Below are positions 27,224 through 41,920 of a stretch of 47,606 bases of DNA, in pieces. The position numbers and the translations under genes were made by a program. The stretch lies in contig JAJDZG010000148.1 in NCBI GenBank assembly GCA_022824765.1, positions 1 to 47,606 on the forward strand, in the 5' to 3' direction. Position 1 is the first letter of the stretch; each line of letters opens with the position of its first letter. A model generated the notes under the pieces. It had not been told where the DNA came from, made no database searches, and was given only the letters and a program-made list of their open reading frames with translations. The stretch is from Dehalococcoidia bacterium. GTDB taxonomy: Bacteria; Chloroflexota; Dehalococcoidia; Bin125.

Positions 27224-28948
27224 GTGATTGACTTCTTTCGACGCTTCAAGTTCCGCGATGCCTACGTCTTCGCGCTGATCCTGATTCTCGCGGCGTTCGC
27301 GATTGCTGCGGCGTGGCCGGGCAACCCGGATCGCTACCTGCCCAGCTTCATCCCCTGGCCCGAGGGCGGCGGTGTGAGTGTGGGCGATTGGGAGCGGAAC
27401 GAGTTCCGTCTCGGCCTCGACCTCGCCGGCGGCGTGTCGATCACGCTCGAGGTCTCTGGGGAAGCGGCGCCGGTCCGGCGCGGGGAGTCGCTCAACCAGT
27501 TTCTCGACCGGGAGGGCGTCGAGCTGGACGAGATCATCGATCTGAATCCGGCGATCGCCGAGCTCGATGCTGACCGCTACGATCTTCCGTTGCCGGAGGA
27601 GATCAACGAGATCACGCTCCCGCTCAACGTCGACGACGATGCGCTTGCCGAGGCGGTGAACGAGTCGCGTCGGGTGATCGAGGAACGGGTCAACGGCTTT
27701 GGCATCTCGGAGGCGGAAGTCACGGTGGTCGGTGAAGATCGGATCAACGCGCAGATCCCGGGCGTGGACGCGGACGAGGCGTCCGACCTGGTTGGTTCCA
27801 CGGCGCTGCTCGAGTTCCGATCCATCGACCAAGCTCAGCCGCAGCCGGAGCGTACGATCGACCGACTCGAGATATCGGATGCCGTGGACGACATCTGGGA
27901 TCCGCAGCTGCCGCTCGATGACGGGCGATTCGTGCGCCGCGTCCAACCTTTCTTCATCCCGCCGGAGGATGAGGATGTGATCGTTGCTCAGGGCGTGCGA
28001 TGGCTGCCGGCGACGGGCATCAACTCGGAAGGCGCGACGGTGCAGCTGACCGGCCGTCATCTGATCGCGGACTCGATTTCGCGCACGCTCGATCAAGCGG
28101 GCGACCCGGCGCTGGCCTTCGAGTTCGACGAAGAAGGCGCGCGGCTGATGGAGCAGATCACGCGGCTGCTGTTCGAGACCCGCGGGCTGCTCGGCATCTT
28201 CGTTGACGGTCAACTGATCTCCAGCCCCGCTGTGAACGCGGTGATCAGCGACTCTGGCATCATCAATGGCCTGACCGAAGAGGACGCCATCACGCTGCGG
28301 CGGCAGTTGCGGGCGGGTGCCCTGCCGATCAACCTGCGCGTGCTGCAGAGCTCCGAAGTTGCGGCCACGCTTGGCGAGGACTCCGTGATCGATACGGTCC
28401 AGGCTGGGGTGGTTGCCTTCCTGGCGATCGTGGTGTTCATGATCATCTACTACCGAGTGCCGGGCCTGGTCGCGGCGTTGGCGCTGGTCGTCTACGCGGC
28501 CGGCGTGATGGCGACGTTCAAACTGGTCCCGATCACGCTGACGCTGGCTGGGGTTGCCGGGCTCGTGCTGTCGATTGGCTTCGCGGTCGACGGCAACGTG
28601 CTGATTTTCGAGCGGCTCAAGGAGGAACTGCGGCTGGGTCGCAGTCTGAGCGGGGCCGTTGACACCGCGTGGGCGCGGGCGTGGCCGGCGATTCGCGACG
28701 GCAACGTCTCGACGATCATCACGGTCGCGATCCTGTGGCTGTTCGCGGACGCACTCAACCAGAACCTGATCAAGTCGTTCGCGCTGGCGCTGTTGGTCGG
28801 CACGGGCTTCAGCTTTGTGACGGTCATTTTCGTGACCCGCAACTTCATGACGATGGCCGTCAGCACGGGCTGGGTTCGCGGATTGCAGCCGTTCGGCGTG
28901 CGTCAAGTGACCGTGCGTCCCGGCCCGGACGGAGGCGGCAGCAGATGA
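27224..28948 (+). CDS. secD: Protein translocase subunit SecD with a LysM-like insertion
   Basis: SecD uses the proton gradient to help pull secreted proteins through SecYEG. The 574-aa protein has an N-terminal helix (residues 13-31), FRLGLDLAGGVSITLEV, the P1 region, SGIINGLTEEDA and GALPINLRVLQSSEVAATLG before the SecD/F six-helix block, and GFAVDGNVLIFERLKEE in TM4-5. Residues about 84-134, between LEV and the conserved ERVNGFGISEAEV region, hold a segment not expected in SecD. It begins RRGESLNQFLDREGVELDE and continues IIDLNPAI, and looks like a LysM domain. The start is GTG at 27224. SecF overlaps by ATGA. Confidence 0.95.
   Translation: MIDFFRRFKFRDAYVFALILILAAFAIAAAWPGNPDRYLPSFIPWPEGGGVSVGDWERNEFRLGLDLAGGVSITLEVSGEAAPVRRGESLNQFLDREGVELDEIIDLNPAIAELDADRYDLPLPEEINEITLPLNVDDDALAEAVNESRRVIEERVNGFGISEAEVTVVGEDRINAQIPGVDADEASDLVGSTALLEFRSIDQAQPQPERTIDRLEISDAVDDIWDPQLPLDDGRFVRRVQPFFIPPEDEDVIVAQGVRWLPATGINSEGATVQLTGRHLIADSISRTLDQAGDPALAFEFDEEGARLMEQITRLLFETRGLLGIFVDGQLISSPAVNAVISDSGIINGLTEEDAITLRRQLRAGALPINLRVLQSSEVAATLGEDSVIDTVQAGVVAFLAIVVFMIIYYRVPGLVAALALVVYAAGVMATFKLVPITLTLAGVAGLVLSIGFAVDGNVLIFERLKEELRLGRSLSGAVDTAWARAWPAIRDGNVSTIITVAILWLFADALNQNLIKSFALALLVGTGFSFVTVIFVTRNFMTMAVSTGWVRGLQPFGVRQVTVRPGPDGGGSR
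27473..27625 (+). other. LysM-like insertion within SecD
   Basis: Residues about 84-134 of SecD read as one LysM repeat: GESL-x-x-F-x-x-R-x-x-VELDE followed by LNPAI and a final LP-turn before a short strand. It sits in the extracytoplasmic P1 region. The same pattern recurs in the DppC-like permease at 39446-39598. Confidence 0.6.
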
Positions 28949-36366: not shown

Positions 36367-36435
36367 GGCCTTATCGGCTCCTCTGGCCGACGGGGTTGGA
36401 CGCACTGGCTGAGACCGTGAAGGTGAGGCGTGCGC

Positions 36436-38187
36436 GTGGCGAACGCGATGACTCGAACCATGTTGCTGGCGCTGATCGGTGTGTTGGGCGCTGTCCTGAT
36501 TTCTGCCTGCAGCGGCGATGACGACGGTCAGCAGCAACGGACCACTCAAGCGACGCAGGAAGCAGCCGAACGCAGCGAGCGTCAGCAGACCGAGGCGCAG
36601 CAAACGCAAGAGGACCAGCAAGCCGAGTCCGACGCTGCAGAGGCTCAAGCCCAGCAGTCCGCGGACGCTGCCGCGGTTCCACGTGAGAGCGGCACCTTCC
36701 GCATCGCCCGGGCGGAGCCGATCAACCTTGATCCGGCGCAGATTACTGATGTCACGTCGGCGGTGATCGCCGTCGAGATTTTCGGCGGTCTCGTGACGCT
36801 CAACCGAGAGCTGCAGATTGCCGCTGACCTTGCCGAGTCGGTGCCTGGACCGCAGATCAACGACGACGGCACGGTCACGTACCGCTTCACGATCCGGGAG
36901 AACGCGCAGTTTCATGACGGCAAGCCGATTACGGCTGACGATTTCAAGTGGAGCTTTGAACGCAACCTGAATCCCGAGACGCTGTCGCCGACCGCGCCTG
37001 ACTTCCTGGGCGACATCGTTGGCGCTGCCGAGTTTGTGCGCGGCCGCGCTGACGAGGTTTTCGGTATCCAGGTGATCGACGAGCGCACGCTGGACATCAC
37101 GATCGGGCAGGCGACGCCGGTCTTCTTGTACAAGCTGACGTATCCGACCGCCTACGTGCTTGATCGGGAGCAGGTGGAGGCTGACCCGGATCGCTGGGCG
37201 CTCAATCCCAACGGGACAGGTCCGTTCAAGCTGGCGGAGTGGACGCTGGGCGAGGGCCTGGTGCTGGAGCGGTTCGACGAGTACCACGTCGAGCCGGCGC
37301 GGGTGGCGCGGATTGACGTGCGTTTCGCGGGCGGATCGGTCGAGCAGTATGAGAACGACGAGCTGGATCAGGCGTTCATCGGCATCAACGACATCGAGCG
37401 GGTTCGCGATCCGGCCTCGCCGCTGAACGCTGAGTACATCTCGCGGCCGGAGCTGTCGATCTTCTATCTGGCTTTCAACGTGTCGACGCCGCCGTTCGAC
37501 GATGTGAATCTGCGCCTGGCGCTGGCCCACGCGATTGACAAAACCACGATCACGCAAGAAGTCCAAGCTGATCTGTTGGTCCAGGCTCGGCAGATCATTC
37601 CGCCGGGTCTGGCCGCGCATGACGCGGAGTATCCGGGGCTCGTCTTCGACCCGGAGCTGGCGGCCGAGTATCTCGCGGCTTCGCGCTACGCGGGCACGCC
37701 GCTGCTTGACGACGTCCGACTCACGATCTCGGGCGCCGGGGCGACGCCGGGCCCGTCGATTGAGGCGATCCAGGACATGTGGCGTCAGCATTTGGGTCTG
37801 GAAGTGGAAATCCAGCAGGTGGAGTTCGCGAGTTTCATCTCAGACATCGACCGCGGCCTGTACGGCTTCTTCTCGCTGGGCTGGAGTCTCGACTATCCCG
37901 ACCCGCACAACGTGCTCGATTACAAGTTCCACAGCGCGTCGCTGGGCAACGATGTTGGGCTGGACGATGAGGAGATCGACTCGTTGCTCGAGCAGGCGCG
38001 TTACTCGCTTGACCAGGAACTGCGCACGGGTCTGTACCAGCAGGTGGACCGCAGGCTGGTCGAGGAGGCTGTCTGGATTCCGTTGTACTACTCCGTCGCG
38101 CACGAGTTGGTGAAGCCGTACGTGCAGGACTACGAGCCGACGCGAATGGTCATTCCGCACCTGCGCTACGTCAGCATCACGGAGTAG
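36436..38187 (+). CDS. Peptide/nickel-type ABC transporter substrate-binding lipoprotein
   Basis: This family 5 solute-binding protein of about 583 aa is exported and lipid-anchored. The signal peptide MLLALIGVLGAVLISAC ends in a lipobox with the Cys to be lipidated. About 60 residues of Gln/Glu/Ala-rich linker follow (CSGDDDGQQQRTTQ and repeats), an unusually long flexible tether. The binding domain then has INLDPAQ, FHDGKPITADDFKWSFER, GTGPFKL and, near the end, DYPDPHNVLDY and EAVWIPLYY. GTG 36436 has GAGG seven bases upstream and is preferred over GTG 36430; ATG 36448 is a further option. The two permease genes follow; no ATPase gene is in the window. Confidence 0.92.
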   Translation: MANAMTRTMLLALIGVLGAVLISACSGDDDGQQQRTTQATQEAAERSERQQTEAQQTQEDQQAESDAAEAQAQQSADAAAVPRESGTFRIARAEPINLDPAQITDVTSAVIAVEIFGGLVTLNRELQIAADLAESVPGPQINDDGTVTYRFTIRENAQFHDGKPITADDFKWSFERNLNPETLSPTAPDFLGDIVGAAEFVRGRADEVFGIQVIDERTLDITIGQATPVFLYKLTYPTAYVLDREQVEADPDRWALNPNGTGPFKLAEWTLGEGLVLERFDEYHVEPARVARIDVRFAGGSVEQYENDELDQAFIGINDIERVRDPASPLNAEYISRPELSIFYLAFNVSTPPFDDVNLRLALAHAIDKTTITQEVQADLLVQARQIIPPGLAAHDAEYPGLVFDPELAAEYLAASRYAGTPLLDDVRLTISGAGATPGPSIEAIQDMWRQHLGLEVEIQQVEFASFISDIDRGLYGFFSLGWSLDYPDPHNVLDYKFHSASLGNDVGLDDEEIDSLLEQARYSLDQELRTGLYQQVDRRLVEEAVWIPLYYSVAHELVKPYVQDYEPTRMVIPHLRYVSITE

Positions 38188-38225
38188 CGGCCGCGGGCAA
38201 GACGCCGCGCTGAAAGGGTCAGCAC

Positions 38226-39212
38226 ATGGGCTCCGGCGCTGTCCCGCTGTTGATCCGACGCTTGCTGTTGGTGCCGCTGCTGGTGTTTGCGGTGATGGCG
38301 CTGACCTACGCGTTGACGCATGCCGCGCCTGGCGATCCGGTCAAGATCATCGCCGGGGCGCGGGACATTGAGCCTGAGCGCGCCCAACAGATTCGTGAGG
38401 AGTTCGGCCTCGAGGGCAGCTACGTCGAGCGCTTTGCGCGCTACGTCTGGGGAGTCGTGTCGCGGGGCGACCTGGGACCGTCGTACTACTACCGATCGCC
38501 GGTGCGATCGGTGCAGGAGTTGCTGGGCCAGCGCATCTGGGTGTCGGCGCAGATCAACCTGATCGTGATGGCGCTGGTCTTCGGGCTGGGCATCCCGCTG
38601 GGGGTGTACGCGGCGGTCAACCGCGGCAAGTGGAAAGATCCGACGCTGATCGCGTTCCTGAAGATCTTCGATTCCATTCCCTCACCGATCCTCGTCGTGT
38701 TGATGGCTGCGCTGATGGTCAACGGATTGGCGCCGATCTTCAACTTCCTCGGCTTCAATGTCCCCAATGTGTGGACGCCTGGTGATCCGGCCTCGTACAT
38801 CATTCCCGTTGTCGCGCTGACGCTGCCGTCGATCGGCGGGACGGCGAGGTTTGTGCGCATTTCGTGTCTGACCACGATTGACGACGACTACGTGCGCACT
38901 GCGCGGGCCAAGGGCTTGACTGAACGGCGCATTCTCTACGGACACGTCCTGCGCAACGCGATGCTGCCGCTGTCGACCGTGTTCGGCCTGTCGATCGTGG
39001 GCATCATCGGCGGATCGATCATCATCGAGACCGCTTATGGCGTGCCGGGAGTCGGAGCGTTCATGTTCCAGTCGATCACGCAGCGCGATTTCAACGTGAT
39101 TCTGGGTTTCACGCTGCTGACCGCGACGCTGTTCATCGTGGTCAACGCGCTGATTGATGCGCTGTACATCTTCATTGATCCGCGAATCCGCTTCACGGCG
39201 CGCTTCCAATGA
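38226..39212 (+). CDS. Peptide ABC transporter permease, DppB family
   Basis: This is one of the two membrane subunits of the importer, 328 aa. It has an N-terminal helix (LLIRRLLLVPLLVFAVMALTYAL), the extracellular THAAPGDPVK, a large loop with RGDLGPSY, five further helices, and the EAA-type motif DYVRTARAKGLTERRILYGHVLRNA, which docks the ATPase. C-terminal ETAYGVPGVG and DALYIFIDPRIR complete the DppB/OppB layout. It overlaps the next gene by 4 bp. Confidence 0.94.
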   Translation: MGSGAVPLLIRRLLLVPLLVFAVMALTYALTHAAPGDPVKIIAGARDIEPERAQQIREEFGLEGSYVERFARYVWGVVSRGDLGPSYYYRSPVRSVQELLGQRIWVSAQINLIVMALVFGLGIPLGVYAAVNRGKWKDPTLIAFLKIFDSIPSPILVVLMAALMVNGLAPIFNFLGFNVPNVWTPGDPASYIIPVVALTLPSIGGTARFVRISCLTTIDDDYVRTARAKGLTERRILYGHVLRNAMLPLSTVFGLSIVGIIGGSIIIETAYGVPGVGAFMFQSITQRDFNVILGFTLLTATLFIVVNALIDALYIFIDPRIRFTARFQ

Positions 39213-40375
39213 CGACGCGCGCGGAGATTCAACCGCAATGGGCGATGCCGCAGCGATCTGAGGCGCCGTGGCTGCGCGCGCTGCGGGCGATCCTGAAGAA
39301 ACGGGTCGCTGTTGTCTGCATCGCGGTGATCGTCGTGCTCTACGGGGCTGGCGCGTTCACGATGCTGGATGCCTTCGGCATCGACATCGGCTTGCAGGAT
39401 CCGAACCAATCCAACCTGAGCCAGCGCCGTTCGATCCGTGAGGTTGACGGCGCGCCGGAGACGTTGGGGGCCTTCACGCAGCGGCTGGATGTGGAGCTGT
39501 CCACGCTGGGCGAGCTCAACCCGGAGATCGTGGATGAGTACGGTCCTCTGACAGCGGATACGGTGCTGCCGGCCCGCACTGAACTGGTCCTGAGCGGTGA
39601 CGAATCGTTGCAAGGACCGTCGTCGGATCACTGGCTGGGCACGGATCGCAACGGACGCGACATTTTCGCTCGGGCGATGTACTCGCTGCGCACGACGCTG
39701 ATCATCAGCATCATCTCGGTCGTGTTCGGGAATCTCTTCCTCGGCCTTGGATTGGGTCTGTTGGCCGGCTATCGAGGCGGCCTGATCGATCAGATCATCA
39801 TGCGGATCGGCGACGTGATGCTGGCGATGCCTGGATTGCTCTTCCTGATCGTGGTTGTGGCTGTCTTTCGTGATCAGTGGGAAGACTGGTTCCGTGCGAT
39901 CGAGGATGCGACGGGGATGCACTGGCTGATCGAGCAGGGCGTTGATGACTATGTGCTGATCGTGTTTGCGTTGTCTCTGGTGGGTTGGGCAGGTTCCGCG
40001 CGGTTCTATCGGGCGCAAGTGCTGGCGCTGCGCGAGTCGGACTACATCCTCGCTGCTGAGACGATCGGCGCGCGCACGCCGCGAGTGCTCATTCGGCACC
40101 TGTTTCCGGGCATCCTGCCCTGGTTCATTGTCGGATTCAGCGCCTCCTTGGGCGAGGTCGCCGGTTCCGAGGTTGTGCTGACCTGGCTCGGTATCGGGAT
40201 CACGCCGCCGACGCCGTCCTTCGGCATCCTGGTCTCGAATGCCGGCGGCCGCACCTCTCTGCTCGCGTATCCGTGGTTGATGCTCGTGCCGTTTACTTCG
40301 CTGCTGATTTTGATGCTTGCGTTCAACCTGCTGGGTGATGCGATCAATGACGTGCTCAATCCACGGGGACGCTGA
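39209..40375 (+). CDS. Peptide ABC transporter permease, DppC family, with a LysM-like insertion
   Basis: This is the second membrane subunit, 388 aa, longer than the ~300 aa usual for DppC. It has one N-terminal helix (residues 33-51), the family loop DPNQSNL, then an extra segment. The family sequence resumes at SSDHWLGTDRNGRDIFARAMYSLRTTL, followed by five helices and the EAA-type motif ESDYILAAETIGARTPRVLIRHLFP. The extra segment at residues about 80-130 (ETLGAFTQRLDVELSTLGELNPEI) sits in the extracellular loop between helices 1 and 2 and looks like a LysM domain, matching the SecD insertion. The ATPase subunits are not in the operon. Confidence 0.93.
   Translation: MTTRAEIQPQWAMPQRSEAPWLRALRAILKKRVAVVCIAVIVVLYGAGAFTMLDAFGIDIGLQDPNQSNLSQRRSIREVDGAPETLGAFTQRLDVELSTLGELNPEIVDEYGPLTADTVLPARTELVLSGDESLQGPSSDHWLGTDRNGRDIFARAMYSLRTTLIISIISVVFGNLFLGLGLGLLAGYRGGLIDQIIMRIGDVMLAMPGLLFLIVVVAVFRDQWEDWFRAIEDATGMHWLIEQGVDDYVLIVFALSLVGWAGSARFYRAQVLALRESDYILAAETIGARTPRVLIRHLFPGILPWFIVGFSASLGEVAGSEVVLTWLGIGITPPTPSFGILVSNAGGRTSLLAYPWLMLVPFTSLLILMLAFNLLGDAINDVLNPRGR
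39446..39598 (+). other. LysM-like insertion within the DppC-family permease
   Basis: Residues about 80-130 follow the pattern ET-L-x-x-F-x-x-R-x-x-VEL-x-x-L-x-x-LNP-x-I, then LP and a final short strand. They interrupt the normal DPNQSNL...GTDRNGRD loop and match the insertion in SecD. Confidence 0.55.
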
Positions 40376-40420
40376 TGCTCGCGGCACAGACTGCATAACG
40401 GCGCGGGCCAGATTCGCTGA

Positions 40421-40426
40421 TATGCT
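40421..40426 (+). promoter_or_regulatory. Putative -10 element (TATGCT) of tig
   Basis: TATGCT, in GCTGATATGCTC, lies in the 123-bp gap before tig and would give a leader of about 65 nt. It belongs to the TAnnCT set. Confidence 0.3.
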
Positions 40427-40498
40427 CACGCCAGCCAGCCTGTCCAGGCTGCGCCGGCGTTGGCGTGCGGCGGCACTGGAAGGCCTGAGAGTGGATCG

Positions 40499-41920
40499 AT
40501 GAAAGTTACCGCCGAAGCAATCCCGGAGCGGCAGATGCTGCTCGAAATCGAGCTTGAAGACGCGCAGGTCAAGAAGGCACTGAACCAGGCCGCGCGGCGC
40601 CTGTCGCAGCAGTACCGCATCCCCGGCTTTCGCAAGGGCAAGGCCCCGCGCGGAGTGGTCGAGAGCGCGCTCGGCGTCGACATCGTGTTTGAGGAGGCTG
40701 CCGAACGGCTGATTCCGCAAGCTTTGAGCGAGGCGCTCGAGCAAGAAGGCATCGAGGCTGTCGGACAGCCCAGCGTCGAGATCACGGAGCGCGAGCCGGT
40801 GATCTTCAAGGCCACTGTCCCGCTCGAGCCGACGTGTGATCTGGGCGACTACCGCAGCATCGCCGTGGCGAAGCCCGAGAGCGAGTATTCGGCGGAGATG
40901 CTCGAAGAGCGCATGCTCGAGCTGCGCCGTCAGCATGCCTTGCTGGAACCGGTCGAGCGGCCGCCCGAGCTTGACGACCGCGTCACCGCTGACGTCAAGG
41001 CGGAGGTCGAGGGTGAGCAGATTCTCGATCAGCCAGGCGCCGAGTTCCACCTGCGGGCGGGCTCGGTGATCGGCGTGCCGGGACTGAGTGAGCGCCTCGT
41101 CGGCGTTGCCGTGGGCGAGGAACATCAGATCGACATCGAGGTCGATGAGGATTGGGACGATGCGGAAGTCGCCGGCAAGACGGTCACCTTCACCGTCACG
41201 GTCCACGACGTGAAGTCGGAGGAGCTGCCGGAGCCGGATGACGACTTTGCGATGGAGGTCTCGGAGGAGTTCGAGACGTATGACGATCTGCGCGAGCGGG
41301 TCGAGAGCGGTCTGCGGGAGCAGACTGACCGTCAGGCGGACGAGCAGTTCTCACAAGCGGTGATGCAAGCGGTGGTGGGCAAGGCCACGCTCGAGTATCC
41401 GCCGGCGCTGGTGGAGCATGAGATCGAGCACATGCGGACAGACTTCGCGCGGCAGATGGGTCAGGATCCCAACAGCTTCCTGCGGGACGGATCGGAGCAG
41501 GCCGAGCAGCTGCTGACCAGCTTCCGGAGCCAGGCCAACGAGCGGGTGATCAACACGCTCGTCCTGCAACACGCCGGCGAAGACCTTGGCATCGAGGTGA
41601 CCGACGAGGAGGTCACGGCCGATCTGCAGACCGCGATCTCCTCAATGCAGGTGTCCGACATCAGCCAGTTCGAGGAGATGCTGACCGATGAGGGCATCCG
41701 CGGCCAGACCCGGATGCGGCTGATTCGCGAGCGAACGATCGAGCGTTTGCAGCAGATTGCCGTGACCAATCACGCCGCCGGCGTCGCGGACGACGATGAT
41801 GACGCAGAGGCAGCGGACGCATCCGACGACGAGGCTGCTGAGCCGATCGTTGACGAGGCGATCGTTGACGAGGCCGCCGATTCAGCCGATGAATCCGACG
41901 CCGAGTCGACGGAATCGTAG
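40499..41920 (+). CDS. tig: Trigger factor, with a long acidic C-terminal tail
   Basis: Trigger factor is the ribosome-bound chaperone and peptidyl-prolyl isomerase. The 473-aa protein has the ribosome-binding loop in PGFRKGKAPRGVVE (the GFRxGKxP signature), a PPIase region (LDDRVTADVKAEVEG to VTFTVTVHDVK), and the helical C-terminal arms. The last ~45 residues are almost entirely Asp, Glu, Ala and Ser with a short internal repeat (EAIVDEA), longer and more acidic than usual. The start at 40499 is inferred from the family N-terminus; the ORF-track start at 40460 has no support. clpP and clpX follow, the conserved order. Confidence 0.95.
   Translation: MKVTAEAIPERQMLLEIELEDAQVKKALNQAARRLSQQYRIPGFRKGKAPRGVVESALGVDIVFEEAAERLIPQALSEALEQEGIEAVGQPSVEITEREPVIFKATVPLEPTCDLGDYRSIAVAKPESEYSAEMLEERMLELRRQHALLEPVERPPELDDRVTADVKAEVEGEQILDQPGAEFHLRAGSVIGVPGLSERLVGVAVGEEHQIDIEVDEDWDDAEVAGKTVTFTVTVHDVKSEELPEPDDDFAMEVSEEFETYDDLRERVESGLREQTDRQADEQFSQAVMQAVVGKATLEYPPALVEHEIEHMRTDFARQMGQDPNSFLRDGSEQAEQLLTSFRSQANERVINTLVLQHAGEDLGIEVTDEEVTADLQTAISSMQVSDISQFEEMLTDEGIRGQTRMRLIRERTIERLQQIAVTNHAAGVADDDDDAEAADASDDEAAEPIVDEAIVDEAADSADESDAESTES

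Follow-up and report, generated by a model that had tools for sequence, protein, structure and literature searches.

Why should an ABC permease of the DppC type hold, in its first extracytoplasmic loop, a segment that resembles one in SecD, an unrelated protein encoded in the same window (the whole 47,606-nucleotide stretch of Dehalococcoidia DNA that was analyzed)? An earlier note on this DNA had proposed that unrelated membrane proteins of this lineage have received a LysM-like domain in their extracytoplasmic loops, and profile comparisons, extra copies, and loop length all support that proposal. We are confident that both inserts are diverged LysM domains that reflect a lineage-specific insertion. 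As to what they do, we lean toward a reading in which LysM modules have been domesticated within membrane machines and, most probably, dock these to peptidoglycan, a binding that is inferred.

Evidence for homology of the two inserts

The permease has the BPD_transp_1 core and the GTDxxGRD loop of its family, and SecD scores 320.2 bits against TIGR01129, over the equivalog-domain cut-off of 244.4 (Table 1). The roughly 50 extra residues first noticed in the DppC loop were borne out, at about 55 within a whole insert of 66, and the interval 39446-39598 correctly marks the core of that insert. Directly after the dppA-dppB-dppC genes come trigger factor, clpP, and clpX (36430-41920), with no transporter ATPase gene adjacent downstream; trigger factor likewise adjoins dppC in one class relative (L083).

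Table 1. Coordinates of the features discussed, as positions in the window
Feature	Position	Strand	Basis
SecD, 574 aa, bearing the homologous insert	27224..28948	+	TIGR01129 secD, over cut-off
LysM-like insert of SecD, P1 base; lies after the GLDLAGG strand and before the helix that leads to ERVNGFG	27467..27625	+	PF01476, 1e0g, predicted fold
Substrate-binding lipoprotein (family 5), same operon as DppC/DppB	36430..38187	+	PF00496, E 9.5e-76
DppB-type partner permease, 328 aa, same operon as DppC, without LysM insert	38226..39212	+	PF00528, E 7e-36; PF19300
DppC/OppC-type ABC permease, 388 aa	39209..40375	+	PF00528, E 5e-30; Opp4C/NikC/DppC models; E. coli DppC, PDB 8z1v
Whole DppC insert, first extracytoplasmic loop, 66 aa (SQRRSIREVDG...SGDESLQG)	39419..39616	+	In 19/19 same-family orthologs, not in class relatives
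Diverged LysM-like core of the DppC insert	39437..39598	+	hhalign to own-genome LysM profile; LysM-only HMM on orthologs

The likeness was first read as a shared pattern, E[ST]L-x2-F-x2-R-x2-VEL-x2-[IL]-x2-LNP-x-I, which both SecD (ESLNQFLDREGVELDEIIDLNPAI) and DppC (ETLGAFTQRLDVELSTLGELNPEI) fit letter by letter. Its VEL element is coincidental in this genome, as orthologs have AEL, VSL, VAL, VEI, and others at that place; what is conserved among them is E[ST]L, F, R, and LN(P). A profile-profile comparison of the two inserts, using 19 sequences each and 300 column-shuffled controls per hhalign comparison, found strong similarity: a score of 43.8 (probability 95.5%, 50 columns, 36% identity), which none of the 300 shuffles reached (mean 10.5, maximum 22.0). 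Against a profile of the LysM domains of the same genome, the DppC insert scored 33.2 (null maximum 24.5) and the SecD insert 34.6 (null maximum 16.8), again with 0/300 shuffles as high in either case. The two inserts match each other better than either matches free LysM. We do not claim that one was derived directly from the other, because some 45 residues cannot resolve such a tree.

Scores of SecD and DppC against a combined lineage profile were set aside, since both proteins are in that profile and the result would be circular; a DnaG primase (C153) that matched it at E 0.1 is cytosolic and was dismissed as chance. In its place we used an HMM built only from the 18 ordinary LysM domains of the genome, with neither insert included. 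By this measure three DppC orthologs reached 17-19.5 bits (L034, L036, and L037, with the early-branching L034 and L036 at 19.5) and two SecD orthologs (L065 and L066) 17-19 bits, the top being 19.2, compared with a maximum of 9.5 among 2000 shuffled decoys. Early-branching orthologs also match the own-genome LysM profile directly, at E of about 2e-4. The window's own two inserts, at 4.5 and 7.4 bits, are too diverged for that test.

Standard models see less of this relationship. When the window proteins were searched against Pfam, NCBIfam, and PDB sequences, the inserts went unidentified. PF01476 matched 6/19 SecD inserts (best E 5e-4), the window's SecD copy by itself staying under the Pfam cut-off of 20.9 bits, and 1/19 DppC inserts (E 0.18), where the cut-off was not reached. 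Searched as a profile against PDB sequences, the SecD insert found the LysM domain of MltD (1e0g, E 6.7e-5), and the DppC insert gave chance matches only. A profile match to LysM therefore holds for SecD, and for DppC through the profile-profile comparison and the LysM-only HMM on early-branching orthologs.

Structure prediction divided the two copies. With 19 sequences, AlphaFold2 predicted for the SecD insert the strand-helix-helix-strand order of a LysM fold (pLDDT 83; strands at 3-6 and 52-55, helices at 13-20 and 24-28), and a Foldseek search of the PDB with this model returned LysM proteins for all of its top 16 matches. The E values, 0.16 and up, are modest, as expected for an insert of only about 50 residues; TM scores to the target reached 0.68. 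Of the two predicted structures, only that of SecD is informative: the DppC insert, modeled as a single sequence without an alignment, gave helices only (pLDDT 73.7) and no PDB match, a model too poor to decide the fold either way. The missing strands, together with the failure of Pfam LysM to match the window's own copies, leave room for the inserts to be short helical loops without common descent, alike to each other and to LysM through composition and convergence. We find this scarcely credible in view of the 0/300 shuffles in each of three profile comparisons, early-branching orthologs that stand well above 2000 decoys with the LysM-only HMM, the LysM-like predicted fold of the SecD insert, and the unmistakable LysM domains of sister membrane proteins.

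Distribution of the insertions and their further hosts

The LysM domain (PF01476, CBM50) usually stands at a terminus or in tandem in secreted hydrolases, lipoproteins, and single-pass proteins. The copies described here resemble it in their profile match, in the G-[ED]-[ST]-L and LN-P positions, and in the predicted fold of the SecD copy; they differ in lying inside polytopic housekeeping proteins, and those of SecD and DppC have diverged to below Pfam's cut-off. Among 18 PF01476 matches in the window's own genome, the carriers were secreted, lipoprotein, or single-pass proteins plus three polytopic ones. The genome-wide search for more copies that the earlier note had called for thus yielded two DppB-type permeases (C170, 39 bits; C48, 57.7 bits, with two domains) and the RseP/M50 protease (C126, 24.6 bits, with a weaker second copy), all over Pfam's LysM cut-off. 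Four relatives (G009, G010, G015, and G018) have the same set of polytopic carriers. In G010, five proteins have LysM between helices (two DppBs, RseP, SecD, and DppC), along with a weaker third DppB. An acyltransferase of G009 and G010 has LysM in its C-terminal extracytoplasmic part (28.5 bits).

In the C170 DppB, LysM interrupts the scoop loop: where a class relative (L234) reads 'LLPGDAVEIIGQYTPLTHGDREAVRRQLGLDKPWYEQY', C170 reads 'ALPGDYVTIKLANLEASG...[LysM and more]...REITEASIKNQLGIDRPLGRQY'. The E. coli DppABCDF scoop loop enters the cleft of the binding protein and seals the cavity (PMC12136057). The loop is the same one, running from TM1 to the helix that precedes the conserved DppB motif LG[IL]D; in E. 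coli it is short, a helix-loop-helix, whereas the DppBs of this family have about 150-200 extra residues there, with one or two LysM domains. The second LysM unit of DppB bears a weak likeness to the DppC insert (score 26.6, null maximum 18.7). In RseP, two LysM units lie between 'ARLAP' and 'QGPTGI/QGATGI', which in most relatives meet at a junction of a few residues. As for SecD, the P1 base and head of the window protein are otherwise ordinary when set beside SecDF (PDB 3aqp), the difference being an additional LysM-like domain that separates the first P1 strand from the next helix.

Several neighboring observations stand apart from this set. In L173, L179, and L180, two or three LysM-bearing DppB paralogs are clustered over some 10-17 kb, and in the third DppB (L173:675-2117) the permease core is degenerate. 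A paralogous DppC beside the LysM-DppB cluster (L047, L048) has its first loop extended by about 90 residues, with no recognizable LysM in them. Large membrane proteins of G128 and G104 (L304, L305, and L306) combine extracytoplasmic LysM pairs with apparent C-terminal SARP/BTAD-type regulatory regions.

The SecD and DppC insertions are specific to the lineage. A same-order sample of 20 genomes, all from one GTDB family, supplied 19 DppC orthologs and 20 SecDs, and the insert is present in 19/19 and 20/20 of them. A draw of 245 genomes across the class gave matches in other families that pick up just past the inserts. For DppC the earliest of them starts near query residue 112, with the majority at 129-136; for SecD the starts lie at about 131 and beyond. 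Ten class relatives' DppCs were read through the site and show a clean junction ('...eqnl-DVSFQGPSWDHPFGTDRNGRD'), as do nine SecDs, which read '...llEgdrasLPAGADLDDAMEGARDVIEKRINEFG'. E. coli DppC (PDB 8z1v) aligns to the window protein only from query residue 134, and paralogous DppCs of the same genomes do not align before residues 116-133, so that none crosses the insert. A loop of this length across the whole DppC family, which would have undone the original claim, is therefore ruled out by class relatives, E. coli, and same-genome paralogs alike. Among the class-wide DppB matches listed, none from outside the family begins before query residue 251, and most of their open frames are of 316-395 aa.

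Judged from these sequences, a single Dehalococcoidia family holds all the SecD, DppC, and DppB insertions. That in RseP extends further: outside the family the segment is missing except in f50 and f59 (L198-L201), two other families of the class whose RseP bears a pair of LysM units at this position. Several bin names (bin125, SB0664, RHO, IRC, and COS) are ones we take to denote sponge metagenomes, and the family, made up of uncultured bacteria, is presumably sponge associated. In four well-assembled, peptidoglycan-bearing relatives used as controls (G051, G077, G107, and G163), 0/25 fetched LysM proteins had LysM between real transmembrane helices; the only one flagged, L294, is a deacetylase that is soluble but contains a hydrophobic segment. 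In family f66 (G149, G168, G198, and G234), DppC matches span only query residues 242-388 within open frames of 416-650 aa, possibly another insertion or fusion.

In family f15, RseP (L204, L209) carries another kind of insert, some 85 residues long, exactly where others bear LysM, so the site looks insertion prone, and the SecD of one same-family genome (G017; L070 1684-2112) has two LysM-like units in tandem within a 143-residue insert. Variety at the RseP site and the doubled SecD copy would suit a view of the inserts as tolerated, selectively neutral ornaments. That view is distinctly improbable, as the inserts are kept in 20/20 family SecDs and 19/19 DppCs, their signature residues are invariant, and dN/dS is 0.11-0.17. 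The median was 0.114 for the DppC insert versus 0.103 elsewhere in the protein, and 0.174 for the SecD insert versus 0.071, with the caveat that synonymous sites are saturated in some DppC pairs. These values indicate that both inserts are constrained, the SecD insert less than its host. At the amino acid level, the SecD and DppC inserts change faster than their hosts (dN 0.24 vs 0.14; 0.17 vs 0.05).

Possible roles at the envelope

The mechanism that we favor, domestication of LysM within membrane machines, would run as follows. In one Dehalococcoidia family, LysM was put into extracytoplasmic loops of SecD, DppC, two or three DppBs, and RseP, and the inserted modules have since been kept under purifying selection. 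The homology of the SecD and DppC inserts to each other and to the genome's own LysM domains, their sites, their distribution, and their conservation are all shown by the comparisons above, whereas the location of the modules outside the membrane is inferred from the known topology of SecD P1, loop 1 of OppB/OppC, and the PDZ region of RseP. If the modules still bind GlcNAc-containing glycan, an inference for which there are no binding data, each machine would be docked to peptidoglycan or to nascent strands at the membrane surface, and docking would fix the place of export, peptide uptake, and stress proteolysis. Counting against this reading are the DppC insert, which by itself falls under the Pfam cut-off and has a single-sequence model of helices only, and the faster dN of the SecD and DppC copies.

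Docking to the wall, meaning peptidoglycan or nascent glycan near the membrane, is an inferred function with no binding evidence behind it, and we give it a little under an even chance. Binding to an envelope polymer is plausible because the genes for peptidoglycan synthesis are present: the family keeps 3-5 penicillin-binding transpeptidases per genome and a MurG-like gene, the latter under that model's cut-off. In three genomes tested from f14 and f15, no penicillin-binding transpeptidases and no MurG-like gene were found. Both results agree with a published account in which the ancestor of Dehalococcoidia had peptidoglycan, later lost in Dehalococcoidales and in the marine radiation (PMC10284905). 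Geometry speaks against docking to a distant wall, as the linkers are short and the domains stay near the membrane, while the sole imaged Dehalococcoidia envelope has a periplasm of 40 nm (PMC10284905). Such short linkers argue for membrane-proximal ligands.

The LysM fold might instead serve as a structural or protein-contact module, orienting a binding protein or a SecD/RseP partner, with glycan binding lost in the SecD and DppC copies. Precedent exists for LysM domains that work through protein contact (PMC10113225); divergence is greatest in the SecD and DppC copies, the SecD insert is less constrained than its host (0.174 vs 0.071), and the DppB inserts occupy a loop that in E. coli reaches into the binding-protein cleft (PMC12136057). 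This is a genuine possibility, to which we would assign roughly one chance in three. It has to account for four unrelated hosts with no shared partner, for which a common ligand is an easier explanation, for DppB and RseP copies that are canonical, and for conserved residues that are those of the LysM signature (G-E-S/T-L, LN-P), although these could be structural.

Family-5 binding proteins take peptides and, in vibrios, chitin oligosaccharides. The importer domains could take hold of GlcNAc-containing substrates for import, such as muropeptides or chito-oligosaccharides; the copies in SecD and RseP would then need an account of their own. The placement is suggestive, since LysM replaces the tip of the scoop loop in DppB and the DppC insert lies at the counterpart position of the partner permease. 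By leaving the SecD and RseP copies unexplained, this proposal seems to us rather improbable. Returning to docking, its widest form, in which LysM physically ties the machines of export, ABC import, and site-2 proteolysis to peptidoglycan across the system, and in which glycan binding by the scoop-loop LysM of the importer could gate substrate release, is unlikely but can be stated.

LysM itself is old, and the nearest published case in the phylum is terminal. Chloroflexota PilO homologues encoded beside archaellum loci have a C-terminal LysM, proposed to anchor archaella to peptidoglycan (PMC12488501). That case likewise adds LysM to an envelope machine; it differs in being a terminal addition to one accessory protein, not a loop insertion into several polytopic proteins. 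A search of open-access full-text literature did not find LysM inside SecD, Dpp/Opp permeases, or RseP, and what is new here is the recurrent, loop-inserted architecture.

For engineers and structural biologists, the SecD P1 base, the DppB scoop, DppC loop 1, and the RseP PDZ region are natural insertion sites, and the system offers a concrete test of whether transport and export complexes can be tethered to the wall. LysM is among the best-known wall-binding modules and is known as a terminal add-on; its presence here suggests that domain insertion can give essential machines wall contacts. For this family, the insertions suggest that the SecD export motor, the peptide-uptake channels, and RseP may be held to the wall in a way that has not been described.
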